IMG/VR virus record: IMGVR_UViG_3300010885_050120
Location: 1-56,031 of that record
Direction: 5' to 3' (one strand)
Length of the DNA: 56,031 bases
Origin: a virus
Positions 9,617 to 27,275 of the stretch are shown piece after piece. The translations under genes and the position numbers were made by a program. Position 1 is the first letter of the stretch. The number at the start of each line of letters is the position of its first letter. The notes beneath the pieces were generated by a model. That model made no database searches, was not told where the DNA came from, and saw only the letters and a program-made list of their open reading frames with translations.

Positions 9617-9856
9617 GGGGTTATTCTTCGTGCAGTTATGGTACGTACCGTATCAATGTCGTTGATAGGGTTGGTTAAGAAAACTTACTCTGGCGTATCA
9701 TTAAGTTTTCTTAACTATTTGGATCTGTTGCACCAGGCGCAACAACCGGGTTTTTAGCGGCAGTTATTTGTTAAGGGTTATGCCTTGTGGGGTTATTCCC
9801 GTGCAGTTATGTTTCGCGCAGTTATGTAGTAGTGGGTTATTGCTCGTGGGGTTATT
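9617..9856 (+). repeat. Iteron-like GTTAT repeats with a perfect 14-bp inverted repeat
   Basis: Nonamers of the form G(C/G)(A/G)GTTAT(G/T) occur at 9617, 9632, 9760, 9774, 9789, 9803, 9818, 9833 and 9848, many about 15 bases apart, and continue at 10024. An AT-rich perfect inverted repeat (GTTAAGAAAACTTA at 9674-9687 and its complement at 9702-9715) lies among them. A TGTTGC/GCAACA hairpin at 9726-9744 followed by TTTTT could be a terminator. This is the best candidate here for a replication origin or a multi-site regulator, but no single reading is proven. Confidence 0.5.
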
Positions 9857-9883
9857 GACAGCCCATAAAGGCGGGTGTACCGT
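9855..9883 (+). promoter_or_regulatory. Promoter of the RlpA-like lipoprotein gene
   Basis: TTGACA, 17-base spacer, TACCGT. It overlaps the last iteron-like repeat and is followed by an unusually long leader of about 110 bases. Confidence 0.65.
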
Positions 9884-9885
9884 TG

Positions 9886-9986
9886 ATCTCCCGCTGGGGG
9901 AACAATTTGGAAATCGGGTGAGGAAAAGCTTCGTAAGAGGTGTACTCTGCTCGGGAGATGAATCGGTTCGCCATAACCCCAGCGGG
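9886..9986 (+). promoter_or_regulatory. Leader with two mutually exclusive long-range stems
   Basis: ATCTCCCG (9886-9893) can pair with CGGGAGAT (9952-9959), or CCCGCTGGGG (9890-9899) can pair perfectly with CCCCAGCGGG (9977-9986). The two left arms overlap, so only one stem can form at a time. The second stem ends 16 bases before the start codon. This is the architecture of an attenuator or riboswitch, but no known aptamer is recognised. Confidence 0.45.
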
Positions 9987-10002
9987 AAGAAAGAGGTGAG
10001 TT

Positions 10003-10515
10003 ATGCGCAGAGTTATATCTGGCGCAGTTATGGTCGCACTGCTTATTGCGTGTGTCCCTAGCCCCACTCGAGTGCTGGCTCCGTCCTACGGGCCGGTTGC
10101 CGACCAACCCCAGGCGCCCATCGCCGTCCTCACTGGGATTGCGACGTGGTATGACGCCTCTCGGAACCATGCGTGGTATACCCGGAAGACCAGCCATGGT
10201 GCGCCTATCAAGTTCTACGCTGCTGCTGGGCCGGAGCTGCGGAAGTACACCCCGAACTCCTATCTGATGAAACCTTATCACATTATTGTAAAGTCTGTCA
10301 AGACAGGTCGAGTGATAGATGTGTGGATCGTAGATTGGTGCGGGTGCTATGGGAGGACGGATTCTGGGAAGCGAACGATGGTGGACTTTGCCCCGGCTGT
10401 CTGGAAGGCGCTCGGCGTGCCACTGGGCCTCGGCATCATGGCGGTTGAGATCACCATCCCCAAGCCCCGACTTGACGGCTCCGCCCCTTGCCCTTATGCT
10501 GCGGGTTGCCCCTAG
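10003..10515 (+). CDS. RlpA-like double-psi beta-barrel lipoprotein
   Basis: 170 residues. The first 17 residues (MRRVISGAVMVALLIAC) are a lipoprotein signal with a plausible lipobox ending at Cys17. After a linker, GIATWYDASRNHAWYTR begins a double-psi beta-barrel; VIDVWIVDWCGCYG and VDFAPAVWKALGVPLGLG supply the conserved Asp and the barrel end seen in RlpA/expansin-like domains. RlpA-type barrels bind or cleave peptidoglycan glycan strands. In a phage it may act on the cell wall from outside the membrane or alter the surface against superinfection; this is inference. Confidence 0.8.
   Translation: MRRVISGAVMVALLIACVPSPTRVLAPSYGPVADQPQAPIAVLTGIATWYDASRNHAWYTRKTSHGAPIKFYAAAGPELRKYTPNSYLMKPYHIIVKSVKTGRVIDVWIVDWCGCYGRTDSGKRTMVDFAPAVWKALGVPLGLGIMAVEITIPKPRLDGSAPCPYAAGCP
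10472..10500 (+). promoter_or_regulatory. Promoter of gene 10550
   Basis: TTGACG, 17-base spacer, TATGCT, inside the end of the lipoprotein gene. A GCCC/GGGC hairpin follows at 10508-10521, near the predicted start of the RNA. Confidence 0.6.
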
Positions 10516-10549
10516 TAGGGCGTAGGTAGTAGAGAGAAGGGAGTACGCA

Positions 10550-10753
10550 ATGGACGCGATTGACTTTGGGTACGCAACAGAGGTCGTACGAAAGAGCCAG
10601 AAGCCAAAGCGACGCCGTCAGCACGGCTACGGGATGTTCGCGGGTGGTCGTCGTACCGACTCTGAGGGGCGACCGCTCCGTAAGAGCAGCAAGCGGCAGA
10701 AGATCGCGAAGTTGGCAGTCTTCGGTCTGATCTTTGGCGGCTTCGGGAGTTGA
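10550..10753 (+). CDS. Small basic protein with hydrophobic C-terminus, 67 aa
   Basis: AGGGAG precedes the ATG. The middle is strongly basic (RKSQKPKRRRQ, RKSSKRQK) and the last 15 residues (LAVFGLIFGGFGS) are hydrophobic, suggesting a membrane-associated or tail-anchored peptide. Its TGA stop lies inside the -35 box of the next promoter. Confidence 0.65.
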   Translation: MDAIDFGYATEVVRKSQKPKRRRQHGYGMFAGGRRTDSEGRPLRKSSKRQKIAKLAVFGLIFGGFGS

Positions 10754-10778
10754 CGAGTCAAGCAACTAGTAGTAGACT
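10750..10778 (+). promoter_or_regulatory. Promoter of the Api92-like gene
   Basis: TTGACG, 17-base spacer, TAGACT. A GGGC-GTA-GCCC hairpin begins one base after the -10 element. Confidence 0.65.
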
Positions 10779-10821
10779 GGGCGTAGCCCGATTGGGTGTA
10801 GTAGTAGAAAGGAGGAGTTAG

Positions 10822-11511
10822 ATGCCAAACTGGTGCGTGAACCAAGTGGACATTCAGGGCGACGAGGTGGAGGTCGCAAAGCTCGTGGCGTTCGTCAAGA
10901 GTGAGGACTCAGTCTTCTCCTTTGAGAAGATCATTCCACCACCAGATACCGATGCGTATCGTGGCTCGGCAAGCAGCAGCGGGTATATCTGCGGCTGCAC
11001 GTCGGAGTATGTGGACGGCAAGTGGCAGATCAACGGCAAGACGCTCGTTGACCGCAAGTGCCCAGAGCATCTTGCGATTGCAGTGCTGGACTCGCCAGAC
11101 AACTGGTACAACTGGAACATTGAGCACTGGGGTACCAAGTGGTCGGCAGCCGAGGGTTGGAACGACCGCGCTGATGACTCGGTTGTTGAGGGCAAGACCT
11201 CGTACAACTTTGATACGGCGTGGAGCCCCGCAGAGCCAGTCGTGGCAGCACTCGCCGCTCAGTTTCCAATGCTGACGATGCAGCATCGCTACTGCGAAGC
11301 CGGAATGGGCTTTGCGGGAGAGATTGCCTATGTCGGTGGCAAGCAGGTCTCGTTTGAGGAGTACGACATGGGTGATCCGTTGCCCGATGTCGCGTGGCTC
11401 AAGGACGAGGACGGCAGTCCGCTGTACGGCGAGCGAGATTACGTACGCGTTCCGATGAACGCAATGGAACGCTTCTGCGACGAGCACTTTGGCGGTGTCG
11501 TCGGGGGGTGA
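10822..11511 (+). CDS. Api92-like (DUF1281-type) ferredoxin-fold protein
   Basis: 229 residues starting MPNWCVNQVDIQGDEVEV, the hallmark start of the Api92/DUF1281 family, followed by FSFEKIIPPPD. A Cys insertion (YICGCTSEY ... DRKCPEH) may bind zinc. The central NWYNWNIEHWGTKW and the AAQFPMLTMQHRYCEAGMGF region also match the family as I remember it. Family members occur on phages and plasmids with no established function. AGGAGG precedes the start. Confidence 0.8.
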   Translation: MPNWCVNQVDIQGDEVEVAKLVAFVKSEDSVFSFEKIIPPPDTDAYRGSASSSGYICGCTSEYVDGKWQINGKTLVDRKCPEHLAIAVLDSPDNWYNWNIEHWGTKWSAAEGWNDRADDSVVEGKTSYNFDTAWSPAEPVVAALAAQFPMLTMQHRYCEAGMGFAGEIAYVGGKQVSFEEYDMGDPLPDVAWLKDEDGSPLYGERDYVRVPMNAMERFCDEHFGGVVGG

Positions 11512-11518
11512 TGACTTC

Positions 11519-11552
11519 GGGGGAGGATGTTTCGGCGGTTTCGTCCTCCCCC
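11519..11552 (+). terminator. Terminator-like hairpin
   Basis: GGGGGAGGA / TCCTCCCCC, perfect 9 bp with a 16-base loop, eight bases after the stop codon. No T-run follows. Confidence 0.5.
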
Positions 11553-11622
11553 ACTAACACTCTTAGCGGAGTGCAATGCAGTTATGGCTTGTGCGCTAAC
11601 ACAGGCCACGAAGGGAGTTCTT

Positions 11623-12099
11623 ATGGAAGAGCACGCAACAACAGCTCGCAACCTAGAGATGGTTGCGTTGTACAAGACCGGGAAGACAATGGAGGAGATC
11701 GGCACGCAGTACGGCATCAGCCGTCAGCGCATCTGCCAGATCTTCAAGCGACATGGGGTTTCCACGGAAGGGGCGCGACGTGGTCGCAAGCCAACCGACC
11801 CTCAGAAGCTCGCAGCCTACGCGCAAGAGGCAATCACCTCTGGCTCTAAGAAGGTGGCGGCTGAGAAGTTCGGAGTTAGTGTGGACACCATTGGGCGTGC
11901 ACTTAGGTTCTCGGGCATTAGCCTGCGCTCCACGAAGTTCACGAGCGATGAGACTCGATCAGACATCGTCAAGCGATATCTGCAGGGTGAGCGCCTTCGG
12001 GTTATCGCCGAGAGTTATGGGACGCGCCCACAGCACATCAACTCGCTGCTCCGTAAGTGGGGCGTTGAGCCACAGGGCTGGGGTCGCGGCACCAAGTAG
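11623..12099 (+). CDS. Protein with three tandem helix-turn-helix modules
   Basis: 158 residues from the ATG at 11623 (GAAGGGAG upstream); the longer open frame to 11527 lacks support. Three successive units each read like a homeodomain-like HTH: ALYKTGKTMEEIGTQYGIS then RQRICQIFKRHGV; AITSGSKKVAAEKFGVSVD then TIGRALRFSGI; RYLQGERLRVIAESYGTRP then QHINSLLRKWGV. Each ends in a hydrophobic-Gly-Val/Ile step. Such arrays bind long DNA sites. It is a candidate regulator of the surrounding array. No catalytic domain is present, which argues against a recombinase. Confidence 0.78.
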   Translation: MEEHATTARNLEMVALYKTGKTMEEIGTQYGISRQRICQIFKRHGVSTEGARRGRKPTDPQKLAAYAQEAITSGSKKVAAEKFGVSVDTIGRALRFSGISLRSTKFTSDETRSDIVKRYLQGERLRVIAESYGTRPQHINSLLRKWGVEPQGWGRGTK

Positions 12100-12137
12100 T
12101 TATGACCGCCCGGGTTATGCCCAGGCGCGTTATGGGG

Positions 12138-12167
12138 TTGACAAGTTGGGCTCTCCCGCGTTATGGT
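12138..12167 (+). promoter_or_regulatory. Promoter of gene 12215, -10 box in a hairpin loop
   Basis: TTGACA, 18-base spacer, TATGGT. A 9-bp stem (GGCTCTCCC at 12149-12157 with GGGGGAGCC at 12168-12176) flanks the -10 element, which therefore lies in the loop. Confidence 0.5.
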
Positions 12168-12214
12168 GGGGGAGCCAAACTTTTGGTATGAAGGGTTAGA
12201 GAAGGAGGGGTTAT

Positions 12215-12538
12215 ATGTATGTGCATAAGGAGTGCCCAAAACCGGCCGCGAGAAATTGGGAAGGCGTACTGGACGGGATCTACCTGAATGGTTGCTCGCC
12301 CATGTCGTTTAACCCGAGCGAGTTTAGCAAGCGGGACTTTGTTCCAGATGGGGACTTTCATGAGGGCGGAATCGTTGACACGATCAACTGCCTAGATTGC
12401 GAAGCCGTAGTCGAGTACGTGTCCGAGGTGCTCGGCGATGAGCACAGCGGCAAAGAGCTCTGGCTCGTGGAGCGCCGACTCAAAGAGGGGTACTACTCCA
12501 CGATTGAGTGGGTTGACTTATCCGCGATTGTCGGTTAG
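12215..12538 (+). CDS. Hypothetical protein, 107 aa
   Basis: AGGAGG precedes the ATG. Acidic protein with a few Cys (HKEC near the start, INCLDCEA in the middle) that could bind a metal. The C-terminal half is helix then strand (GKELWLVERRLKEGYY). Function unknown. Confidence 0.7.
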   Translation: MYVHKECPKPAARNWEGVLDGIYLNGCSPMSFNPSEFSKRDFVPDGDFHEGGIVDTINCLDCEAVVEYVSEVLGDEHSGKELWLVERRLKEGYYSTIEWVDLSAIVG

Positions 12539-12541
12539 AGT
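12513..12541 (+). promoter_or_regulatory. Promoter of the 12586-13867 operon
   Basis: TTGACT, 17-base spacer, TAGAGT, within the last codons of gene 12215. A short CCCA/TGGG hairpin follows at 12550-12559. Confidence 0.6.
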
Positions 12542-12585
12542 CGTAGTAGCCCAGTTGGGTGAGTGTAGTAGATAGGAGGTGCTAG

Positions 12586-12864
12586 ATGAACGGACTGGTT
12601 GATCACGATGCGCTCGTCAAGGAGCGCGCAGGATTGCTCCCAGAGGATCGGGAGTTCCATTACATCTCAAGCGAGATGGTTGAGCCGCTCATTGGCGGCG
12701 TCATCATTGGCGGTCGCGTGGAAGAGGCTGATGGGCTTACCCCATTCCCAGTCTTGCGCGTGATGCTCAAGGGTGCGGTCTATTCCGTCGTTGTTTCTAT
12801 GGACGACGAGCAGAACGGCGGCGGTCGCCTAATGATTGAGAAAGAGGAGGTGTCCAATGGATAA
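12586..12864 (+). CDS. Hypothetical protein, 92 aa
   Basis: AGGAGG precedes the ATG. Begins MNGLVDHDALVKERAGLLP and contains a Gly/Ile-rich strand pair (LIGGVIIGGRVEEAD) and a hydrophobic strand (AVYSVVVSMDDE), suggesting a small beta sheet. First gene of the four-gene operon that includes a RadC-like protein. Overlaps the next gene by eight bases. Confidence 0.68.
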   Translation: MNGLVDHDALVKERAGLLPEDREFHYISSEMVEPLIGGVIIGGRVEEADGLTPFPVLRVMLKGAVYSVVVSMDDEQNGGGRLMIEKEEVSNG

Positions 12865-13126
12865 CAGGCAGTACAGGTTCTCTATGAAGTTCGCGGTAGA
12901 GCGCGACGTGATTATTGAGGCTGAGGACTTGGTGGAGGCGATGGCGCTTCTCACCAACGTCAGCCCAGAGATGTGCCTCGCCGAGATTGACGGCACAGGC
13001 ATCACGTTTCCAAGCAACATCAACGACCAGACGCAGGTCTACCCAGAGCACGATTTCCTTTATCGTTGCGATGAGGACGGCGCCGAGATTGACGGCGACC
13101 TGCTAGACGACAAGGACGAAGTATGA
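12857..13126 (+). CDS. Hypothetical acidic protein, 89 aa
   Basis: Start at 12857 chosen because AGGAGG lies six bases upstream. The N-terminal half (RFSMKFAVERDVIIEAEDLVEAM) looks like a beta-alpha unit; the C-terminal half is very acidic (DEDGAEIDGDLLDDKDEV). Such charge could mimic DNA. That is speculation from composition only. Confidence 0.68.
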   Translation: MDNRQYRFSMKFAVERDVIIEAEDLVEAMALLTNVSPEMCLAEIDGTGITFPSNINDQTQVYPEHDFLYRCDEDGAEIDGDLLDDKDEV

Positions 13127-13683
13127 CCGAGATTGCATTCAGGCCATACGAGGTGGTCATCACGCGTTCGCGACTGGAGTCGCAGCGCATCATTGTGAAC
13201 GACACCCCAGCTCTGGTTGAGGTGTTCAGGTCGTACTACGACGGACTCGACCGCGAGATGGTCTTGGCTGCTGTGCTAGACGATGTGAACGGATTGCTCG
13301 GTGTGTACGAGGTGTCGCGTGGCGGCACATCCGAATCGCCGATTGACCCGAACAACGTCTTCCGCCCTGCGATTCTGCTTGGCGGTAGCAAGGTGCTACT
13401 CGTACACAACCACCCGACTGGCGACCTTCGCCCGTCCGATGGAGATGTGCGCTCAGCGAAGGCGCTCTTTATGTTGGCGTCGCTCCTTGACTTGGAGGTG
13501 TCCGACAACATCGTGATCAACGCAGAAACCGGGGAGCACGAATCTGTTCACGCCCACCCAGAGTTCCGACGATGGTTAGGCAAGGATCTGATTCGCATTG
13601 CTGGGATTATGGCGGGTGGCGATTTGACGGACGAGCAGTTGGCTGCATCCGAGGAGTTGGAGAAGGTTGCTGCGAATGTCTGA
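13123..13683 (+). CDS. RadC-like JAB/MPN domain protein
   Basis: 186 residues with an ATGA start overlap. The JAMM metal motif is intact: HNHPTGD at about 95-101 followed by RPSDGD. The preceding GGSKVLLV strand and the following helix match RadC. A C-terminal extension of about 50 residues beyond the JAB domain is present. RadC-like proteins are common on mobile elements and suspected metal-dependent peptidases or isopeptidases with roles around DNA; the reaction is not established. A second copy occurs at 18487. Confidence 0.85.
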   Translation: MTEIAFRPYEVVITRSRLESQRIIVNDTPALVEVFRSYYDGLDREMVLAAVLDDVNGLLGVYEVSRGGTSESPIDPNNVFRPAILLGGSKVLLVHNHPTGDLRPSDGDVRSAKALFMLASLLDLEVSDNIVINAETGEHESVHAHPEFRRWLGKDLIRIAGIMAGGDLTDEQLAASEELEKVAANV

Positions 13684-13867
13684 CGCTATGGAGAAGCGGG
13701 TTATGTCCGCACTCGAAAGCACCAAGGCAGCACGCAAGGAGTTAGGGGTTATGGTCTTATCCATAACGCCCGACGAGGGGCTGGTCGGAGCATACGAGCA
13801 GATGTTCGCGCTCAGGAACACAGAGTCATGGCTGCAGAGGTGGCTTGACCGAATCCGCCAGAGGTAG
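13676..13867 (+). CDS. Small helical protein, 63 aa
   Basis: The ATG at 13676 overlaps the RadC-like stop by eight bases. Predicted helices (SDAMEKRVMSALESTKAARKE; ESWLQRWLDRIRQR) with a short strand between. Last gene of the operon. The next promoter lies within its final codons. Confidence 0.6.
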   Translation: MSDAMEKRVMSALESTKAARKELGVMVLSITPDEGLVGAYEQMFALRNTESWLQRWLDRIRQR

Positions 13868-13873
13868 TAGTAT
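13845..13873 (+). promoter_or_regulatory. Promoter of gene 13920
   Basis: TTGACC, 17-base spacer, TAGTAT. A TTGGG/CCCAA hairpin follows within a few bases, then AGAGTGAGAGGAGG. Confidence 0.65.
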
Positions 13874-13919
13874 CAGTGTGTTGGGGCTTCCCAACGTAGA
13901 GTGAGAGGAGGGACTAGAG

Positions 13920-14234
13920 ATGGCAGCAGCAACAAGCTGGGCTAAGGTAGAGGTCGCCGTTGAGATGGCGAAGGGCATCGCGTTTGACGAGTGCCACAAG
14001 ATCTATGTGCTTCTTGATGACGCACAGATGGATCAGATGAAGGAGTGGGGCTATGACCCGCTGCTCTCGTCGGATGATCTGACGGCGAAGGAGATGTTGG
14101 CAACGCTTCGCAAGTGGTACCACGACTCCTGCGGGCTTCGGTTTATCTCGGCGGTTCGCACCGTTGAGGGCGATCCAAATGACGGGTTCATTACCCTCAT
14201 CGGTCAGGGCGAGGACTACGACGACGCAAACTAA
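13920..14234 (+). CDS. Hypothetical protein, 104 aa
   Basis: Begins MAAATSWAKVEVAVEMAKG, followed by HKIYVLLDDAQMDQMKEWGY and a helical stretch; ends acidic (GEDYDDAN). It looks like a small alpha/beta domain. No family recognised. Confidence 0.7.
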   Translation: MAAATSWAKVEVAVEMAKGIAFDECHKIYVLLDDAQMDQMKEWGYDPLLSSDDLTAKEMLATLRKWYHDSCGLRFISAVRTVEGDPNDGFITLIGQGEDYDDAN

Positions 14235-14246
14235 GTAGCGGCGGTT

Positions 14247-14273
14247 ATGGGCGGGGGTTATGCTCCCGCCCAT
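14247..14273 (+). terminator. Terminator-like hairpin
   Basis: ATGGGCGGG / CCCGCCCAT, perfect 9-bp stem with a 9-base loop, 12 bases after the stop of gene 13920. The next gene has no promoter of its own, so read-through is likely. Confidence 0.5.
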
Positions 14274-14297
14274 ACGCCAGTTAGGAGGTTCTAGGTT

Positions 14298-14477
14298 ATG
14301 GCTAAGAGCGAATGGGCGAAGGCGTCTGAGGCCGAAAAGCGGCCGGCCTGTCCGAACAACACGCGTCATGGTGAGCTTGTGCCTCACGCAAAGGGTGGCC
14401 TTGTGTGTGTCGAGTGCGAAGAAGCTCATGCCGGGACACGCAGCCGGGAACCACACCGCTGGGCCGATCCTCGCTAG
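14298..14477 (+). CDS. Small Cys/His protein, 59 aa
   Basis: Starts at 14298 behind AGGAGG. Contains CPNNTRHG, LVCVEC and a later His-rich end, suggesting a zinc-bound mini-domain. Reading depends on the upstream promoter. Confidence 0.6.
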   Translation: MAKSEWAKASEAEKRPACPNNTRHGELVPHAKGGLVCVECEEAHAGTRSREPHRWADPR

Positions 14478-14482
14478 GGGGG

Positions 14483-14511
14483 TTGACTCATTGCGAGATA
14501 GCGAGTAGTAT
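14483..14511 (+). promoter_or_regulatory. Promoter of gene 14556
   Basis: TTGACT, 17-base spacer, TAGTAT. A TCGGG-GACTT-CCCGA hairpin is at 14519-14533. Confidence 0.7.
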
Positions 14512-14555
14512 TCGGTAGTCGGGGACTTCCCGATGTAGAGAGTGAAGGAGGGACT

Positions 14556-15035
14556 ATGGGTCAGTATCACGGACTATTCAACATTGACAAGAAGGAGATG
14601 TTGTTCCCACACGAGTTGGGCTTCGGCGCGAAGCAGTGGGAGCACACGGGCTTCGCAGGGTCGCTGTCGGACATCCTCTATGCGCTCTGCGCGTATCAGG
14701 TGAATCGCGGCGGCGGCGATTTCGGCAACGATGGCGGTATCTTCAAGGGGCGTTGGCACGGCGACCGCGTTGCGGTCGTCGGCGACTACGCTGCCTTCGG
14801 TGATCTGCCTGCGGCGTGGAACGATGCGTTCGTAGACCACGAGTACAACGGCGAAACGCACAAGGTGTTCAACATGGCTCGCGACAATGAAGACGGCACC
14901 GAGCCGTTCTTCACGGACATTGGCGACGAGATCCGCGCAAGCGTCGCGACGCTCTGGGAGAAGGATGAGCAGAAGTACATCTCTCTCCGCCAGAAGTACG
15001 CGCATGGAGCGATCTCCCCAGTACCAGTGGGTTGA
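14556..15035 (+). CDS. MGQYH-type conserved phage protein
   Basis: 159 residues opening MGQYHGLFNIDKKEMLFPHE, a start I associate with a conserved uncharacterised family in actinobacteria and their phages. It has a Gly-rich central loop (NRGGGDFGNDGGIFKGRW) and several Trp, His and Asp residues. Its TGA stop is part of the next -35 box. Function unknown. Confidence 0.72.
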   Translation: MGQYHGLFNIDKKEMLFPHELGFGAKQWEHTGFAGSLSDILYALCAYQVNRGGGDFGNDGGIFKGRWHGDRVAVVGDYAAFGDLPAAWNDAFVDHEYNGETHKVFNMARDNEDGTEPFFTDIGDEIRASVATLWEKDEQKYISLRQKYAHGAISPVPVG

Positions 15036-20602: not shown

Positions 20603-20609
20603 GAGGTTA

Positions 20610-21886: not shown

Positions 21887-21901
21887 GTTAGAGGTTACGG
21901 G

Positions 21902-21935
21902 TTAGGGGGTTAGGCGTAAACGCCTAGCCCCCTAA
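21902..21935 (+). terminator. Long GGGGGTTAGGCG hairpin
   Basis: 15 pairs (one G-T) with a four-base loop; the stem arms are TTAGGGGGTTAGGCG and its complement. Confidence 0.7.
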
Positions 21936-21982
21936 TGCTATGCAGGCCACAACGAGCTGCAGCTCCGGCACGCGGCAGGGGG

Positions 21983-22011
21983 TTGACGCTATCGCCGCGA
22001 GGTTGTAAAGT
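21983..22011 (+). promoter_or_regulatory. Promoter of gene 22056
   Basis: TTGACG, 17-base spacer, TAAAGT. A GGCGAGG-AGACA-CCTCGCC hairpin is at 22019-22037. Confidence 0.75.
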
Positions 22012-22055
22012 AAGGGTAGGCGAGGAGACACCTCGCCAGAGTGTAGGAGGCAACA

Positions 22056-22193
22056 ATGACGGTAAGCAAAAACTACGCGGGGGCGATCATCATCTCCGAC
22101 ATCATCGGCGGGGAGCGCGTGCAACGCGTCTACATCGGCTACACCAAGCGCGAGGCGATGAGCCGCTTCCGCAAGGAGATGCGCGCGAAGTAA
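22056..22193 (+). CDS. Small protein, 45 aa
   Basis: Starts at 22056 behind AGGAGG. It has two strands (GAIIISDIIGGERV, QRVYIGYT) followed by a basic helix (KREAMSRFRKEMRAK). Unknown function. Confidence 0.65.
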   Translation: MTVSKNYAGAIIISDIIGGERVQRVYIGYTKREAMSRFRKEMRAK

Positions 22194-22200
22194 TCCAAAG

Positions 22201-22266
22201 GCGGGCGGGGGGTTATCCCTCGCCCGCTTAGGGTTAGGGGTTATAGGTTAGGCGTAAACGCCTAAC
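22201..22266 (+). terminator. Two successive terminator-like hairpins
   Basis: GCGGGCG/CGCCCGC at 22201-22227 and GTTAGGCG-TAAA-CGCCTAAC at 22247-22266. Confidence 0.6.
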
Positions 22267-22294
22267 GCGCGCAGGCCCCGAATAGAGCTCGGAG

Positions 22295-22302
22295 TGTAAC
22301 AA
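22295..22302. promoter_or_regulatory. TGTAACAA element
   Basis: Single copy TGTAACAA 31 bases upstream of the next promoter. Confidence 0.4.
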
Positions 22303-22332
22303 TTGAGGCCCGCCGGGGGCGCGGTAGGGGGC

Positions 22333-22361
22333 TTGACGATTCTCGCGCGATGACCGAGAAT
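22333..22361 (+). promoter_or_regulatory. Promoter of gene 22406
   Basis: TTGACG, 17-base spacer, GAGAAT. The whole promoter, spacer included, is identical to that at 24710-24738. A GAGGGG/CCCCTC hairpin follows at 22369-22387. Confidence 0.65.
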
Positions 22362-22405
22362 ACAGGTAGAGGGGCGAGTGACCCCTCATAAGAAAGGAGT
22401 CCACA

Positions 22406-22612
22406 ATGGACTACGAGACGTACGAGATGGATGACCTCGGGACGGGTTTTGAGGAAGCCGCCGAGCGCGAGTATGACCGCCGCGAGGAAGCCGCCATTGA
22501 CGCGGTACGTTTCCCCGATGCGGGCATCATCGCCTTCTTCACACCGCGCTCGTGCGCGGCGAAGACGTGCTGGATCGGCGACAATCACACCATTGACTGC
22601 TTGCCCTTCTAG
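22406..22612 (+). CDS. Small acidic family protein, copy 1, 68 aa
   Basis: Begins MDYETYEMDDLGTGFEEA and ends TCWIGDNHTIDCLPF. The N-terminal half (AEREYDRREEAAIDAVRFPD) is shared with gene 23768, and the C-terminal half (IIAFF-PRSC, AKTCWIGDNH, DCLPF) with gene 25652. Two Cys and a His near the C-terminus may bind metal. Family not recognised outside this window. Confidence 0.7.
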   Translation: MDYETYEMDDLGTGFEEAAEREYDRREEAAIDAVRFPDAGIIAFFTPRSCAAKTCWIGDNHTIDCLPF

Positions 22613-22618
22613 GGCACG

Positions 22619-22644
22619 GGGGGCGGGGGTTATACCCCGCCCCC
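22619..22644 (+). terminator. GGGGGCGGGG/CCCCGCCCCC hairpin
   Basis: Perfect 10-bp stem with a 6-base loop; the same stem recurs at 26800. Confidence 0.7.
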
Positions 22645-22710
22645 TAGCGGTTAGGGGTTATAGGTTATGGATTATGCATAACGCATAATGCGCAGGCCGC
22701 GCCAAAGCTT

Positions 22711-22726
22711 TGTAACAATGTAACAA
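22711..22726. promoter_or_regulatory. Tandem TGTAACAA element
   Basis: TGTAACAATGTAACAA preceded by AAGCTT; 19 bases upstream of the next promoter. Confidence 0.55.
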
Positions 22727-22745
22727 TCGAGTCGGTCACGGGGGA

Positions 22746-22774
22746 TTGACGCGATGCGCTTCCCGTGGTCTAAT
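22746..22774 (+). promoter_or_regulatory. Promoter of gene 22817
   Basis: TTGACG, 17-base spacer, TCTAAT. A GAGGGGC/GCTTCTC hairpin is at 22782-22799. Confidence 0.65.
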
Positions 22775-22816
22775 GGATGCAGAGGGGCGAACGCTTCTCA
22801 GAAGAAGGAGGACGCA

Positions 22817-23002
22817 ATGGGAATGACGAAAACGGGTAGCGGCATCGTGCTTGTCGGCTATCTAGACACCGCGTGCGGGGTTGTATTCTGCCGCGATTGT
22901 GGAGACCACGGCGATGGGACGTGGATGGAGACCATCTACTCCCCCGACGTCAATGAGGACACCCCGCCGTGCTCCTCGTGCGATGCACGGTTGGACGCCT
23001 AG
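22817..23002 (+). CDS. Zinc-ribbon-like protein, 61 aa
   Basis: Start at 22817 behind AAGGAGG. CGVVFCRDCGDHGDG and a C-terminal CSSCD form a Cys4 zinc-ribbon arrangement separated by an acidic loop. Function unknown. Confidence 0.72.
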   Translation: MGMTKTGSGIVLVGYLDTACGVVFCRDCGDHGDGTWMETIYSPDVNEDTPPCSSCDARLDA

Positions 23003-23021
23003 GGTTATCGGTTAGGGGTTA

Positions 23022-23047
23022 GGGGTTAGGTGATAACGCCTAACCCC
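23022..23047 (+). terminator. GGGGTTAGG/CCTAACCCC hairpin
   Basis: Perfect 9-bp stem with an 8-base loop. Confidence 0.6.
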
Positions 23048-23074
23048 TGCCGCCCCGCTGGCCTCCCCAGAGCT

Positions 23075-23091
23075 TTGTAACAATGTAACAA
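23075..23091. promoter_or_regulatory. Tandem TGTAACAA element
   Basis: TTGTAACAATGTAACAA preceded by AGCT, 19 bases upstream of the next promoter. Confidence 0.55.
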
Positions 23092-23110
23092 TCGGGCGGC
23101 CAGAGGGGTA

Positions 23111-23139
23111 TTGACTCTTTGCCCGTTTGGGTGTTCAAT
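23111..23139 (+). promoter_or_regulatory. Promoter of gene 23183
   Basis: TTGACT, 17-base spacer, TTCAAT. An ACGGGA/TCCCGT hairpin is at 23148-23166. Confidence 0.6.
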
Positions 23140-23182
23140 AGGTGTAGACGGGACGAGTGCTCCCGTAGATGTGGAGGGTCAT

Positions 23183-23461
23183 ATGACCATCACAATGAAA
23201 GAGGCGGCAGACATCCTGACCGCTTCCGATGGGCGGATCGTTTCCGTTGTTTTCGTGAAGCGCACCACGGGCGAGACCCGCACGATGGTATGCCGAACGG
23301 GCGTTAAAAAGCACCTGAAGGGCGGGGACGCCGCCTATTCGTTCAGCGCCAATGCGCTCCTGAGCGTTTGGGATATGGGAGTGAAGGGTTATCGCTCCAT
23401 CCCGCTTGATGGGATCGTCTCCCTCAAGAGCGGCGGCGTAGAGTACGCGGTCAAAGGGTAG
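23183..23461 (+). CDS. WYL_2/DUF2693-like Sm-fold protein, copy 2
   Basis: 92 residues from the ATG at 23183 (GGAGGG upstream). It aligns without gaps to gene 19425 over almost its whole length, sharing RTGVKKHLKGGDAAYSF exactly. Differences are mostly conservative, indicating an older duplication kept under selection. Confidence 0.7.
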   Translation: MTITMKEAADILTASDGRIVSVVFVKRTTGETRTMVCRTGVKKHLKGGDAAYSFSANALLSVWDMGVKGYRSIPLDGIVSLKSGGVEYAVKG

Positions 23462-23472
23462 GGCAAAGGGAG

Positions 23473-23491
23473 GAGGGGGACGCGCCCCCTC
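23473..23491 (+). terminator. GAGGGGG/CCCCCTC hairpin
   Basis: Perfect 7-bp stem with a five-base loop shortly after the stop codon. Confidence 0.55.
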
Positions 23492-23532
23492 TCCCCGCCC
23501 GAAAAGCTGACGGCGGGGCCTCGCAAGGGGTA

Positions 23533-23561
23533 TTGACAAACGCGGCGGAGTGTGCTACAAT
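23533..23561 (+). promoter_or_regulatory. Orphan promoter 1 (no gene downstream)
   Basis: TTGACA, 17-base spacer, TACAAT: one of the best consensus matches in the array. The next 130 bases hold only GGGGTTA-type repeats and GC-rich inverted repeats, then the promoter of gene 23768. It looks like a cassette that lost its gene. Confidence 0.65.
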
Positions 23562-23694
23562 AAAGGGGGAAGGGTTATAGGTTACGAGCTTACGGGTTAG
23601 GGGTTATAGGTTACGGCCTAACGCGTAACGCGCCCGGCGCCGCCGGCAGCGGCCTCGACTGAAAAAGCTCTGGCCGTGACGGCCACAAGGGGGG
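23562..23694 (+). repeat. Gene-less spacer with GGTTATAGG/GGGGTTA repeats
   Basis: Contains several copies of GTTA(C/G/T)GGG or GGTTATAGG and CGCGTAACGCG-type palindromes. No ORF or ribosome site is seen. Confidence 0.5.
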
Positions 23695-23723
23695 TTGACG
23701 ATTCTTCAATGATGACGGAGAAT
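23695..23723 (+). promoter_or_regulatory. Promoter of gene 23768
   Basis: TTGACG, 17-base spacer, GAGAAT. A GAGGGG-CAGACG-CCTCTC hairpin is at 23731-23748. Confidence 0.65.
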
Positions 23724-23767
23724 GAGTGCAGAGGGGCAGACGCCTCTCACAAGAAAAGGGGTGCAAC

Positions 23768-23989
23768 ATGTACGACGAACTGGACGACATGGGTACGGGA
23801 TACGAAGAGGCGGCGGAGCGGGAGTACGACCGCCGCGAAGAGGCGGCGATCCACGCCGTACGCTTCCCAGATGAGGCGATTCTGGCATTCTTCGCCCCGA
23901 CCCCCTGCGACTGCGCGAAGGGCGATACCGACGCTGCGGTTGGGGCGCTGCTAACGGGGCGCTGCGCCCGCTGCGGTTGGGGTGCATAG
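23768..23989 (+). CDS. Small acidic family protein, copy 2, 73 aa
   Basis: Start at 23768 (AGGGG upstream). The first 45 residues (MYDELDDMGTGYEEAAEREY...) match gene 22406 closely. The C-terminus differs: PTPCDCAKGD ... RCARCGWGA, giving four Cys in two pairs instead of the CWIGDNH end. It seems to have exchanged its C-terminal module. Confidence 0.7.
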   Translation: MYDELDDMGTGYEEAAEREYDRREEAAIHAVRFPDEAILAFFAPTPCDCAKGDTDAAVGALLTGRCARCGWGA

Positions 23990-24010
23990 CGGTTAGGGGT
24001 TAGGCGAGAG

Positions 24011-24038
24011 GGGGAGGCGCGGGGCGCCTCCCCTTTTT
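24011..24038 (+). terminator. Rho-independent terminator
   Basis: GGGGAGGCGC-GGG-GCGCCTCCCC perfect 10-bp stem followed by TTTTT. Confidence 0.85.
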
Positions 24039-24091
24039 GTTGGCCTGCGCAAAGCTTTGTAACATGTAACAATCTGGGCGGAGCTGGGGTA

Positions 24092-24120
24092 TTGACAAAC
24101 TTCGCTAAACATGCTACTAT
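24092..24120 (+). promoter_or_regulatory. Orphan promoter 2 (no gene downstream)
   Basis: TTGACA, 17-base spacer, TACTAT. No ribosome site or ORF follows before the next promoter 130 bases on. Confidence 0.6.
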
Positions 24121-24251
24121 GGAGCTGGAGAGGGGCCCCGCTTTCTGGCGGCCGGTTAGGGGTTACGGGTTATGTGTTATGTGTAACATGTAACAATCAA
24201 GTGCGCCCCCGGGAATGTAACAAAAGCTCTGGCACCGGCCATGATGCCCCA

Positions 24252-24280
24252 TTGACGATAGCCGCGCTCTATGGGATACT
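24252..24280 (+). promoter_or_regulatory. Promoter of gene 24327
   Basis: TTGACG, 17-base spacer, GATACT. A GCGAGGG-AGACT-CTCTCGC hairpin is at 24288-24306. Confidence 0.65.
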
Positions 24281-24326
24281 AGGTGCAGCGAGGGAGACTC
24301 TCTCGCAAGAGTGAAAGGGGTACGCA

Positions 24327-24536
24327 ATGGAAAGCGCAATCCTGAACATTACGCGCGGCGAGGCGCAAGAGTCGCGATGGTTGGCGGGGATCGCAACCGA
24401 CCAACTAAAGGGCGCGCAGGATGCAATGCTTGCGGGCGACCTAGACGATGCGGCGGCGGCGATCCGCCGTGCGGTAACCGCGCTAGGGATGATCGCCAAT
24501 AGCCAGACGGCAATCCTGAAGCGCACGGATCGCTAG
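24327..24536 (+). CDS. Small helical protein, 69 aa
   Basis: Predicted long helices with Ala-rich faces (QDAMLAGDLDDAAAAIRRAVTALGMIAN), suggesting a two-helix hairpin or coiled coil. No motif recognised. Confidence 0.68.
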   Translation: MESAILNITRGEAQESRWLAGIATDQLKGAQDAMLAGDLDDAAAAIRRAVTALGMIANSQTAILKRTDR

Positions 24537-24542
24537 TACTAA

Positions 24543-24580
24543 GAGGGAGGGGGAAGCGCCCCCTCCCTCTCTCTTTCTTT
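24543..24580 (+). terminator. Rho-independent terminator
   Basis: GAGGGAGGGGG-AAGCG-CCCCCTCCCTC perfect 11-bp stem followed by a T-rich tract (TCTCTTTCTTTT). Confidence 0.85.
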
Positions 24581-24709
24581 TCTAGCTGCTAGGTGTTATG
24601 GATTATGAGTTAGGGGTTATAGGTTATGGGTTAGGTGTAACGCGTAATGCGCGGGAGGGCCGGCCCGAGCATCCACACTTGAGATTCCGGCTACCCGCCA
24701 TCTACCCCC

Positions 24710-24738
24710 TTGACGATTCTCGCGCGATGACCGAGAAT
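24710..24738 (+). promoter_or_regulatory. Promoter of gene 24786
   Basis: Same sequence as the promoter at 22333, including spacer. A GCAGAGG-ACAAT-CCTCTGC hairpin is at 24746-24764. Confidence 0.7.
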
Positions 24739-24785
24739 AGGTGTAGCAGAGGACAATCCTCTGCAAGAGTGAAGGGAGACCAGAG

Positions 24786-25040
24786 ATGGTAGACCAGAAG
24801 GAACTGGCGGCAATCATCGCCAGCACCCCCGCCGAGGGTGCAGTCCGCGAGGCGGCAGTAATCGGCGAAGTGGATCGCAACGACGATGCGCTCCTCGGCA
24901 CGCTCTTCAAGCAGGTGGCAGGTGGTCTGCTCTCGGTGGCGGCGTATGAGACCATCTACGCTAAGACTGACAAGCACGGGAAGTTTGTGGATGACGCGTG
25001 GCGCCTCATCGCCATCCGCACCATCCGCTACGGGTTGTAG
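24786..25040 (+). CDS. Hypothetical protein, 84 aa
   Basis: GGGAG upstream. Helical, with AAVIGEVDRNDDALLGTLFK and a hydrophobic segment (QVAGGLLSVAAYETIY), ending IRTIRYGL. Probably a small soluble helical bundle. Unknown family. Confidence 0.68.
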   Translation: MVDQKELAAIIASTPAEGAVREAAVIGEVDRNDDALLGTLFKQVAGGLLSVAAYETIYAKTDKHGKFVDDAWRLIAIRTIRYGL

Positions 25041-25046
25041 CAGAGA

Positions 25047-25073
25047 GGGAGAGGGGGATACGCCCCCTCTCCC
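25047..25073 (+). terminator. GGGAGAGGGGG/CCCCCTCTCCC hairpin
   Basis: Perfect 11-bp stem with a five-base loop. Confidence 0.75.
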
Positions 25074-25090
25074 CCCTCGGGGGCTATCGG

Positions 25091-25130
25091 TTAGGGGTTA
25101 GGGGTTAGAGGTTAGGGGTTATAGGTTATC
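25091..25130 (+). repeat. Longest telomere-like GGGGTTA tract
   Basis: GGTTAGGGG repeated with GAGG and ATAGG variants, giving at least three G4 runs separated by TTA within 40 bases, so a G-quadruplex on the plus strand is possible. Confidence 0.6.
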
Positions 25131-25201
25131 GCGTATGGCGTATGACGCGTGCGGGCCAGCATCTTGAGCCCGCTACCAGCTCCGAGCCCGGGCTAGACCC
25201 C

Positions 25202-25230
25202 TTGACGCTATCCGCTTGAGGGTGTTTAAT
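25202..25230 (+). promoter_or_regulatory. Promoter of gene 25274
   Basis: TTGACG, 17-base spacer, TTTAAT. A GAGGGGC-AGAC-GCTCCTC hairpin is at 25238-25255. Confidence 0.65.
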
Positions 25231-25273
25231 AGGTGCAGAGGGGCAGACGCTCCTCGAGAGTGTAGGAGGAACC

Positions 25274-25423
25274 ATGGACAAGGAGACTCGACTAGCCGAG
25301 CATGAGGGTCATACGATCCGCATCGCTCGAGACGCCGAGACGGGGATCAGCACCCTTGAATGCGACTCCTGCGGGGAATACCTGCTCGAGCAGTACGATG
25401 ATGGAATGGTGCTCTGGGGGTAG
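25274..25423 (+). CDS. Small Cys protein, 49 aa
   Basis: Starts at 25274 with AGGAGG upstream. Contains LECDSCGEYLLEQY, a single CxxCG knuckle, and an early His pair (EHEGH) that could complete a metal site. Confidence 0.65.
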   Translation: MDKETRLAEHEGHTIRIARDAETGISTLECDSCGEYLLEQYDDGMVLWG

Positions 25424-25430
25424 GTGCAAC

Positions 25431-25454
25431 GGGGAGGGGCTCGAGCCCCTCCCC
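25431..25454 (+). terminator. GGGGAGGGGC/GCCCCTCCCC hairpin
   Basis: Perfect 10-bp stem with a TCGA loop. Confidence 0.7.
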
Positions 25455-25576
25455 CCTTCGGGGGTTATAGCCCGGGTTAGGCGTTATGGGGTTAGGTGTT
25501 ATGGCGTATCGCGTATGGCCTGCGCGGAGCTGGGCAGGGTAGCCGGCTCGGGCGGGTACGGGCTCGAGTGTGCCCC

Positions 25577-25605
25577 TTGACAATAGCCGCGCCGTACCTG
25601 AGAAT
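25577..25605 (+). promoter_or_regulatory. Promoter of gene 25652
   Basis: TTGACA, 17-base spacer, GAGAAT. A GAGGGG-CAGACG-CCTCTC hairpin, identical to that of gene 23768, is at 25613-25630. Confidence 0.65.
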
Positions 25606-25651
25606 AGAGGTAGAGGGGCAGACGCCTCTCATGAGTGAAGGGAGAACCGAG

Positions 25652-25849
25652 ATGGACTGGATGAACGAGATGGGCGAGATGATCGCGGTGGATGCGCCAG
25701 AGCGCGAGGATGCGCACGATGCGATGGTGGACTCGCAGATCGCAATCATCCGCGATGAGCAGATCATCGCGTTCTTTGCCCCGCGATCCTGCGAGGCTAA
25801 GACCTGCTGGATCGGCGACAACCACGGGAACGATTGTCTCCCGTTCTAG
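25652..25849 (+). CDS. Small acidic family protein, copy 3, 65 aa
   Basis: Start at 25652 with GAAGGGAG upstream; an ATG at 25631 overlaps the leader hairpin. The C-terminal half (IIAFFAPRSCEAKTCWIGDN, then H and DCLPF) is nearly the same as in gene 22406; the N-terminal half is diverged. Cys and His positions are kept. Confidence 0.7.
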   Translation: MDWMNEMGEMIAVDAPEREDAHDAMVDSQIAIIRDEQIIAFFAPRSCEAKTCWIGDNHGNDCLPF

Positions 25850-25855
25850 GGGTTA

Positions 25856-25878
25856 GGGGCGGGGGTTATCCCCGCCCC
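25856..25878 (+). terminator. GGGGCGGGG/CCCCGCCCC hairpin
   Basis: Perfect 9-bp stem with a five-base loop. Confidence 0.65.
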
Positions 25879-25974
25879 GCCCTTAGGGGTTAGGGGTTAG
25901 AGGTTAGGGGTAAACGCATACCGCGCCAGCGCCTATGGGCAGGGGCTACCTCGCCGGCTACTCAATCGGGGCTC

Positions 25975-26003
25975 TTGACATACTCGCCGCGATGCCCGAC
26001 AAT
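25975..26003 (+). promoter_or_regulatory. Promoter of gene 26065
   Basis: TTGACA, 17-base spacer, GACAAT. A GAGGG-GATGCA-CCCTC hairpin is at 26011-26026. Confidence 0.65.
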
Positions 26004-26064
26004 AGAGGCAGAGGGGATGCACCCTCTACGCATCGGGAGCGTATGAATCCCGGGGAGGGTCATC

Positions 26065-26352
26065 ATGACCAGACCAACAAACGAGGGGCGTATCATCGGC
26101 GACATGTTCGCCCCCCGCGATACCTGGGCGGCGCTCAACGCAGCCCGGGGCGTAGAAGAGGCGCGCGCTTTTGCGCTTCTGGTAGAGGCAGAGCGTATTA
26201 TGCTCGCCACTCAGCATCCGGGCGTGGCGTACGACATCAGCGCCGCCGCAGAGGCGTTGCAGAGTGTCTGCACCGATGAGGCGGACATCATCATCCGCCA
26301 GCAGGGGCTAACGCCCCGCCAGCGCCAAGAGGCGGGCGAGGCTATCGCCTAG
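26065..26352 (+). CDS. Hypothetical helical protein, 95 aa
   Basis: GGAGGGTC precedes the ATG. After a short basic start, helices dominate (TWAALNAARGVEEARAFALLVEAERIM reported by position, residues about 20-46; ISAAAEALQSVCTDEAD). The end is LTPRQRQEAGEAIA. No family recognised. Confidence 0.68.
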   Translation: MTRPTNEGRIIGDMFAPRDTWAALNAARGVEEARAFALLVEAERIMLATQHPGVAYDISAAAEALQSVCTDEADIIIRQQGLTPRQRQEAGEAIA

Positions 26353-26378
26353 CACCTAGCCCGCCGGCGGGCACCTAG

Positions 26379-26410
26379 CACCCCTCGCCTACGGGCGGGG
26401 GGTGTTTTGT
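26379..26410 (+). terminator. Rho-independent terminator
   Basis: CACCCCTCGCC pairs throughout with GGCGGGGGGTG (one G-T), followed by TTTTGTT. Confidence 0.8.
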
Positions 26411-26524
26411 TATGTGCCCCGGTTATCGGTTAGGTGTTATGGGTTAGAGGTTAGGGGTTAGGGTGTATCGCGTATGCCGCGCGCGGTGCTGGTTGTCTGG
26501 TAGCCGGCGCCCTAGTGAGGGTGC

Positions 26525-26553
26525 TTGACGATACGCGCGGGGCGTGTTCTAAT
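26525..26553 (+). promoter_or_regulatory. Promoter of gene 26602
   Basis: TTGACG, 17-base spacer, TCTAAT. A GGCGGAGG-ACAAT-CCACCGCC hairpin with one internal mismatch is at 26563-26583. Confidence 0.68.
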
Positions 26554-26601
26554 AGGTGCAGAGGCGGAGGACAATCCACCGCCCAAGAGGAGGACTGAAC
26601 G

Positions 26602-26793
26602 ATGGAACGATGCGAGGCACGAACGAACGAGGAGATGGGAACCTACCAACCAGACGCCATTGACGGGGATTGCGAGAATCCCGTGGTGACACACTTCACT
26701 AATGAGGAGTCTGGCGCGGTAGTACCCTTCTGCGAGTATCACCGCGATGAGATGCACGACATCGCCCACGCGATTATGGCGCTTTACTGCTAG
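26602..26793 (+). CDS. Small Cys/His protein, 63 aa
   Basis: GAGGAGG upstream. Has C at 4, DCENP, FCEYHRDEMHD and a final Cys; the FCEYH step with upstream Cys suggests a Cys3-His zinc site. Function unknown. Confidence 0.68.
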   Translation: MERCEARTNEEMGTYQPDAIDGDCENPVVTHFTNEESGAVVPFCEYHRDEMHDIAHAIMALYC

Positions 26794-26799
26794 GGGATA

Positions 26800-26825
26800 G
26801 GGGGCGGGGGTTATACCCCGCCCCC
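26800..26825 (+). terminator. GGGGGCGGGG/CCCCGCCCCC hairpin
   Basis: Same perfect stem and loop as at 22619. Confidence 0.7.
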
Positions 26826-26966
26826 TAGCCGCCGGCTATGGGTTAGAGGTTAGGCGGTTAGAGGTTAGAGGTTAGGCAGTTAGGGGTTATGGCGTACCGC
26901 GTACGGCCCGCGAGAGCTGCGGGCGATCCAGCCCGTAGCCGGCACCTAGCGGCCGTATCCGCCCTC

Positions 26967-26995
26967 TTGACAATAACCGCCCGCCGTGGTCTAAT
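26967..26995 (+). promoter_or_regulatory. Promoter of gene 27046 (last of the array)
   Basis: TTGACA, 17-base spacer, TCTAAT. A GAGG-type hairpin with a bulge is at 27003-27025. Confidence 0.65.
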
Positions 26996-27045
26996 AGACG
27001 CAGAGGGGAGGCACTAGACCTCCTCCAAAGAAAAGGAGCACTAAG

Positions 27046-27240
27046 ATGGACAACTTCACAGAGGGCTGGTACGCAGGAATGGACACTAAGAGCCTCCGCG
27101 AGGAAGCGGCAAGAGCAGAGAAGGAGGCGCAGGAATGGGAGAAGCAGCGCCAGAGGGACAACGAGGACGCAGCGGAGCGCCGCAGCCTCATCGCCCGGAT
27201 TGACGCGGCGAAGCGAAAACTCATCAGCCGAGCACTCTAA
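27046..27240 (+). CDS. Small coiled-coil protein, 64 aa
   Basis: After MDNFTEGWYAGMD the protein is a continuous charged helix (SLREEAARAEKEAQEWEKQR...), a likely coiled coil. It is the last gene of the array. Confidence 0.68.
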   Translation: MDNFTEGWYAGMDTKSLREEAARAEKEAQEWEKQRQRDNEDAAERRSLIARIDAAKRKLISRAL

Positions 27241-27247
27241 ACGGGAC

Positions 27248-27275
27248 GGGGAGGGGGGGTACGCCCCCCCCTCCC
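27248..27275. terminator. Strong bidirectional terminator-like hairpin
   Basis: GGGGAGGGGGGG-TACG-CCCCCCCTCCCC, perfect 12-bp stem between the array and the converging minus-strand operon. Confidence 0.7.

Follow-up and report, generated by a model that had tools for sequence, protein, structure and literature searches.

The 56,031-base stretch of viral DNA that was analysed here as a whole (from here: the window; IMG/VR record IMGVR_UViG_3300010885_050120) is probably a fragment of a phage genome. Between positions 9855 and 27275 it carries an array of 17.4 kb, a plus-strand island with minus-strand genes flanking it on both sides. The array consists of 39 small open reading frames (ORFs) with a median length of 85 amino acids (aa), of which 32 possess their own promoter. 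An earlier note on this DNA had interpreted the region as one-gene-one-promoter cassettes, and this interpretation is supported both by the anatomy of the units and by the occurrence of the same format in related phages. Such a cassette comprises a host-type sigma70/SigA promoter, a short 5′ hairpin, a strong and unpaired ribosome site about 10 nucleotides (nt) further on, a small gene and often a GC hairpin.

Promoters and units of the array

A consensus scan of positions 9500-27500 returned 29 sites, 26 on the plus and 3 on the minus strand, compared to 5.7 (standard deviation 2.5) on both strands of dinucleotide shuffles. The sequence TTGAC occurs 51 times on the plus and 9 times on the minus strand within the array, while the respective counts in the flanks are 15/24 and 48/65. 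Placement of promoters yielded 35 of σ70/SigA type on the plus strand, the number claimed before, where about 6 were expected. TTGAC is present in 34 and the final T of the TANNNT-like −10 element in all 35; the promoter spacer measures 17 nt in 28 instances, 18 nt in four and 16 nt in three, again as claimed. At each of the four positions just upstream of the −35 element, G is found in 26-29 of the 35 promoters. This G-run was rejected as a universal part of the promoter, because it becomes CCCC in several late units (24252-25577).

Thirty-two promoters precede genes, one (17996) precedes a structured RNA and two (23533 and 24092) serve nothing within 200 nt, the same allocation as proposed earlier. 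The genes without a promoter of their own start at 11584, 12857, 13123, 13676, 14298, 17151 and 20950; the 32 genes with promoters were thus confirmed, whereas seven coupled genes were counted instead of eight, giving a total of 39 rather than about 40. Both orphan promoters are among the best consensus matches and look like gene-less remnants of cassettes. The features of the array are as follows.

9855-10515, plus strand: unit 1, −35 at 9855, 114 nt structured leader, gene 10003-10515
10472-10753, plus: unit 2, promoter 10472, gene 10550-10753
10750-11511, plus: unit 3, promoter 10750, gene 10822-11511 (DUF1281_C, Api92-like)
11584-12099, plus: repeated helix-turn-helix gene (sigma70_r4-like), no recognisable own promoter found
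12138-12538, plus: unit 4, promoter 12138, gene 12215-12538; orthologue elsewhere in the array of relative L005
12513-12864, plus: unit 5, promoter 12513 within the 3′ end of the preceding ORF, gene 12586-12864
12857-13126, plus: coupled gene
13123-13683, plus: coupled gene, RadC-like JAB domain
13676-13867, plus: coupled gene
13845-14234, plus: unit 6, promoter 13845, gene 13920-14234
14298-14477, plus: coupled gene
14483-15035, plus: unit 7, promoter 14483, gene 14556-15035
15032-15535, plus: unit 8, promoter 15032, gene 15107-15535
15711-16294, plus: unit 9, promoter 15711, gene 15785-16294
16398-16653, plus: unit 10, promoter 16398, gene 16468-16653
16650-17148, plus: unit 11, promoter 16650, gene 16723-17148
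17151-17342, plus: coupled gene
17339-17825, plus: unit 12, promoter 17339, gene 17415-17825 (DUF3846)
17996-18260, plus: unit 13, promoter 17996, non-coding RNA of about 225 nt (18030-18256), U-tract terminator
18374-18963, plus: unit 14, promoter 18374, 78 nt leader, gene 18487-18963 (RadC-like JAB)
18968-19229, plus: unit 15, promoter 18968, gene 19041-19229
19350-19715, plus: unit 16, promoter 19350, gene 19425-19715 (weak WYL_2; paralogue of 23183-23461)
19765-20093, plus: unit 17, promoter 19765, gene 19836-20093
20227-20602, plus: unit 18, promoter 20227, gene 20303-20602
20695-20953, plus: unit 19, promoter 20695, gene 20768-20953
20950-21108, plus: coupled gene
21224-21554, plus: unit 20, promoter 21224 (TTGCGC), gene 21294-21554
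21571-21886, plus: unit 21, promoter 21571, gene 21641-21886
21983-22193, plus: unit 22, promoter 21983, gene 22056-22193
22333-22612, plus: unit 23, promoter 22333, gene 22406-22612 (similar to 23768 and 25652)
22746-23002, plus: unit 24, promoter 22746, gene 22817-23002
23111-23461, plus: unit 25, promoter 23111, gene 23183-23461 (paralogue of 19425-19715)
23533-23561, plus: orphan promoter, 11/12 consensus, the best of the array; enters spacer repeats
23695-23989, plus: unit 26, promoter 23695, gene 23768-23989
24092-24120, plus: orphan promoter, 10/12 consensus; enters spacer repeats
24252-24536, plus: unit 27, promoter 24252, gene 24327-24536
24710-25040, plus: unit 28, promoter 24710, gene 24786-25040
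25202-25423, plus: unit 29, promoter 25202, gene 25274-25423
25577-25849, plus: unit 30, promoter 25577, gene 25652-25849
25975-26352, plus: unit 31, promoter 25975, gene 26065-26352
26525-26793, plus: unit 32, promoter 26525, gene 26602-26793
26967-27240, plus: unit 33, promoter 26967, gene 27046-27240, with a 12 bp GC hairpin behind it at about 27248-27276

Leader hairpins and unit ends

In most units the leader, measured from the predicted +1 to the start codon, is 36-45 nt long, and only a few are longer. Perfect stems of 5 or more pairs, beginning at +1 to +6, were found in 26 of 31 leaders of the window, compared to 4.6 expected from shuffling, and in 155 of 187 leaders across 13 arrays, compared to 38 expected. 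The loops in relatives are often ACUU, GCUU or AGUU. Comparison of orthologous leaders of G000, G014 and L005 revealed stems altered in both arms, TGTCGG/CCGACA versus GATCGGA/TCCGATC, and a second compensatory example, GCGAAGGA/TCCTTCGC versus GTGAGG/CCTCAC. Because these differing stems still pair, with both sides changed, the leader pairing is under selection and not merely inherited. These counts and compensatory changes bear out the proposal of an own 5′ hairpin for nearly every unit. The ribosome site AGGAGG is located downstream of the leader hairpin and is unpaired in most leaders.

A two-stem element of longer leaders, GAGGTAAG...GGCACC, closed by an outer stem, is present at 18409-18470 of the window (unit 14) and also in L003, L005 and L099. 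It precedes different genes in different phages and could be a regulatory RNA element.

A GC-rich hairpin of at least 7 pairs lies behind 28 of 40 units. Another 8 of the 40 leave no room for one, as the next promoter overlaps or abuts the end of the ORF, and a U-tract (5 or more T among the 8 nt past the stem) follows in only about 6 units. The suggestion that units end in GC-rich hairpins hence holds for those 28 units, but not in the sense of a universal terminator; hairpins lacking a U-tract may act on the 3′ end of the message instead.

Structured RNAs and spacer elements

The RNA at 18030-18256 has a promoter of its own and a terminator hairpin that covaries strongly, and 10 relatives retain it; comparison of this RNA with Rfam gave nothing above chance. 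Since this RNA has its own promoter, the array format carries RNA genes, too. Two further structured RNA candidates were noticed in the arrays of relatives (L094, about 9490-9770; G018, 1105-1300, oriented; L099, about 3354-3650), and for those searched no convincing Rfam match was found.

In the clade of the window, the spacers (9600-27000) are filled with heptad-like GGTTAGG/GGTTATR repeats, mostly on the plus strand, which often fold into a terminal hairpin. Spacer motifs vary by subclade, for instance TAGAAC palindromes occur in G001 and others. Sister-clade arrays (G001, G003, G008, G010, G019; e.g. L094:2298-12040) harbour a 38 nt element in nearly every spacer that ends shortly before the −35 element and has the fixed geometry GTTC-3-(10 bp)-4-(10 bp)-3-GAAC. 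The strict pattern is matched by 67 copies, the arms of which are unlike in almost every unit and pair perfectly, with one G-T in 670 pairs, suggesting selection on DNA rather than on RNA. These palindromes were also considered as integron attC sites and rejected, because the ends of attC face the opposite way and the cassettes here carry promoters.

Conservation of the format and turnover of the genes

Twenty related records were read in pieces of at most 20 kb. A plus-strand promoter cluster was found at the corresponding place in 12 further phages, so that the search for relatives that share the unit format but differ in the genes inside it, a test set in advance, had a positive outcome. 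By one method, 187 of 296 array genes possess their own promoter, compared to 71 of 891 genes elsewhere on the same contigs, with the promoter at the standard distance of 30-50 nt for 163 and 26 genes, respectively; as the promoter model was trained on the window, the counts are conservative at diverged sites of relatives and slightly generous for the window. The arrays of G001 and G002 reach the contig ends, which may be due to circular permutation, and the window itself is probably a fragment.

Relatives G014 and L005 track the window almost unit by unit, with several units housing unrelated genes. Distant relatives retain 7-11 of 38 array genes in an order close to random; summed over eight of them, 17 of 69 adjacencies are kept in the array, compared to 102 of 142 outside. 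Among the orthologues, 57 of 69 in the array retain their own promoter, compared to 3 of 16 located elsewhere. The assumption that orthologues outside the array always keep the shell, i.e. promoter, leader hairpin and ribosome site, is therefore false. The three that do are gene 16723 in related phages, probably representing one event, and the case of G009 was seen directly besides; in four relatives this gene is located outside the array in the opposite orientation, still accompanied by promoter, hairpin and ribosome site.

Some close pairs of relatives display seamless insertions or deletions. The members of the pairs G007/G009 and G013/G012 differ in the same 62 aa gene, which one of them has and the other lacks; its gain or loss is bounded precisely by two copies of ribosome site plus start, the junction repeat being the 18 nt AGTAGGAGGAAGTTATGG for G007 versus G009 and the equivalent sequence for G013 versus G012. 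Where the gene is absent, its promoter and hairpin serve the next gene. Compared to G010, G003 carries three additional genes on a segment of about 980 nt that is bordered by two copies of ACTAGAACCTCTTGAC, which is a spacer end plus −35, and further pairs show shorter repeats in the leader hairpin or ribosome site. Among randomly drawn window pairs, 16 nt were shared in about 0.3% of trials. The position of junction repeats at shared regulatory parts supports recombination there as one route of turnover. Together, turnover, scrambled order and seamless indels support the earlier idea of a platform for gene gain and loss.

Array proteins

Acidic proteins prevail, with an isoelectric point below 5.5 in 26 of 39. 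Matches comprise two RadC-like JAB proteins, DUF1281_C, DUF3846, the helix-turn-helix repeat protein, a weak WYL_2 and a weak double-psi beta-barrel. The latter, in the secreted product of 10003-10515, is a double-psi beta-barrel/RlpA-like match below the Pfam cut-off (PF03330, E 1.8e-4). The RadC-like JAB proteins 13123-13683 and 18487-18963 each match the other's orthologues at about 30-34%. The product of 12586-12864 is the best conserved protein of the array; its family gave a fair structure model (pLDDT 81) for which no significant PDB match was found, and the 16723 family gave a poor model (pLDDT 43). The orthologues of the helix-turn-helix gene 11584 in G014 and L005 likewise lack a promoter of their own. 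Isolate homologues of 15785-16294 occur only in Arthrobacter phages, within an ordinary operon, and no comparable array was found in these phages. Such a protein set would fit anti-host or anti-defence functions.

The phage and its other genes

The window also encodes a portal, a capsid (42368-43603), a tape measure protein, SSB, MazG, a cytosine methylase, a DnaC-like loader and exonucleases. No near-identical isolates were found among 50,697 phage records (INPHARED), and similarity to isolates is distant: the best capsid matches are at 27-28% (Bacteroides phages) and the portal is at about 24-26%. IMG/VR contains relatives of the capsid in at least 107 instances, and many of these lie on contigs of 79-91 kb. 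The phage group is uncultured and the phage itself probably virulent. A search for the host through phage contigs binned in GTDB genomes returned no capsid relative; the promoter style, which resembles that of actinobacterial SigA, and the Arthrobacter-phage homologue point to a possible actinobacterial host.

Three other genes were noted. The portal gene 36715-38889 contains a polynucleotide-kinase-like/LNS2-like domain at about residues 490-610, 39786-42245 encodes a head maturation protease with a fused domain that matches a 'DNA binding protein' family, and 4031-4759 strongly matches a phage ferredoxin family, an auxiliary metabolic gene.

Comparison with known systems

Morons are single genes with their own promoter and terminator, scattered singly among the genes of tailed phages. 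The array resembles them in its single-gene units but differs in that its shell is standard and common to about 35 units. An integron cassette array, with promoterless cassettes, attC and an integrase, does not match the locus, where 32 of 39 genes have promoters; an integrase was not searched for.

The host-takeover module of SPO1 contains about 26 early genes, most of them small, which are equipped with strong host-type promoters and ribosome sites (Stewart 1998; PMC6873191). The array, too, clusters mostly small genes and provides them with such promoters and ribosome sites, and both have many single-gene units and 5′-terminal hairpins. A simple scan assigned an own promoter to 13 of 28 SPO1 genes and to 23 of 39 genes of the window, and a stem of 6 or more pairs opens 5 of 12 SPO1 leaders, compared to 0.33 expected. 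The leaders of SPO1 (L168) genes 41, 43, 45, 47 and 51 begin with GC-rich hairpins at about +5, a feature for which no mention was found in the literature searched. Unlike the array, the SPO1 module forms two opposed blocks and belongs to an AT-rich Bacillus phage, in which it lies in the terminal redundancy. A module of this type comes to expression at the start of infection, and its products shut off functions of the host. General searches revealed no sequence relation between the two, and no dedicated test was made.

T4-type PeSLs are repeated pairs of early promoter and stem-loop that mediate gene shuffling among related phages (Arbiol 2010 and Comeau 2014, via PMC4503421). The array likewise has promoters, presumably early ones, beside stem-loops repeated between small genes, and shuffling junctions at a minority of its indels. 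Relative to PeSLs as outlined in that source, the shell of the array adds a 5′ leader hairpin and a ribosome site at nearly every gene of a contiguous array, and junctions fall at the ribosome-site repeat, too. The SAS/ESAS of cluster K mycobacteriophages and cluster EF Microbacterium phages are repeated motifs starting many small non-structural genes; SAS is a 13 bp sequence motif and the arms of ESAS do not support RNA pairing (PMC3203893, PMC7302621). In contrast, the stems of the array continue to pair despite drift of their sequence and come with a promoter; neither of the 13 bp motifs GGGATAGGAGCCC and GGGAAAGGACCCC was present in the array start contexts examined. Staphylococcus kayvirus has 58 sigma70 early promoters and 26 transcription units that hold 81% of its genes (PMC7698491); it shares with the array the large number of sigma70 promoters, which in the array are presumably early, but its units are mostly multi-gene.

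The SPO1 module is the best functional and PeSLs are the best evolutionary parallel. With these close precedents, the view of an array without precedent was too strong, and it is best read as a more thorough version of a SPO1-module/PeSL-like arrangement.

Discussion

We regard the array as probably a host-takeover-type early module, likely of a virulent phage, that is assembled from standard cassettes for expression. Upon entry of the DNA, host RNA polymerase would begin transcription of all units at the same time, and neither phage factors nor long messages would be needed. The 5′-terminal hairpin would most likely guard the short message against 5′-end-dependent decay and shield the ribosome site from upstream sequence. 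Because ribosome site, leader hairpin and spacer plus −35 are alike between units, whole genes could be dropped, added or moved through homologous recombination at these parts with expression intact.

Several points weigh against this interpretation. Promoters and units are predictions from DNA alone, and the genes of relatives were called with a simple home-made caller. A third of the units lack a downstream hairpin and U-tracts are few, therefore read-through between units is likely, and the separate tuning of genes that the earlier note proposed is a conjecture. Most of the array indels listed have no junction repeat of 10 nt or more. Domain searches found no match to a known function for most array proteins, and the label 'takeover' derives from protein size, acidity, the RadC, DUF1281 and DUF3846 matches and the SPO1 parallel.

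An artefact of chance or composition in a GC-rich region can be dismissed, given the shuffle and strand controls, the conservation in relatives and the compensatory changes. If a few strong promoters instead produced long messages, the other promoters would top these up and the hairpins would be sites of RNase processing or stability, as in T7 early RNA. The 8 units without a terminator, the lack of U-tracts behind most hairpins and the flanking of many genes by 5′ and 3′ hairpins are consistent with this, yet well-formed promoters are kept in 57 of 69 orthologous units, where idle ones would not be maintained, and leader hairpins start at the predicted +1, as a primary 5′ end would; we therefore consider it unlikely. 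The array might alternatively be a site where morons piled up, the genes having arrived singly with promoter and terminator and sharing no platform. High turnover, patchy gene sharing between relatives and the retention of promoter and hairpin by gene 16723 on the other strand outside the array speak for such an accumulation. The shell is, however, uniform within and between phages in leader length (mostly 36-45 nt), hairpin position (+1 to +5) and ribosome-site context. Moreover, 13 of 16 orthologues located elsewhere lack a promoter and the Arthrobacter-phage homologue resides in an operon, hence the shell follows the place more than the gene, which makes the pile-up rather unlikely. It appears less probable still that a phage factor reading the G-run or the GGTTAKR repeats is needed, and that the promoters are middle or repressible rather than immediate-early. 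The prevalence of G before the −35 element, the GTTAGG/GTTATG repeats on one strand of window-clade spacers and the promoterless helix-turn-helix gene within the array would suit such a factor, but the −35 and −10 elements form a complete sigma70-type promoter for which no helper is needed, the G-run turns into CCCC in several late units, and spacer motifs vary by subclade while the promoter stays constant.

Beyond an early module of standard cassettes, one may speculate that the shell is a gene-capture system, its uniformity being selected for the swapping of small genes by recombination within it, with the 38 nt palindromes of the sister clade as dedicated DNA sites for capture or insulation. 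Though doubtful at present, such a system would, if true, be a novel type of cassette platform in phages, distinct from integrons. The array provides a clear example from nature of phage accessory genes turning over as complete expression cassettes, with junctions that are readable at base level in close relatives. It shows where, in an uncultured phage group, a search for new anti-host and anti-defence proteins could begin, and it supplies promoter, hairpin and ribosome-site parts in naturally diversified sets. Finally, that the SPO1 module has such a 5′ hairpin as well suggests a rule for early phage messages that arose by convergence.

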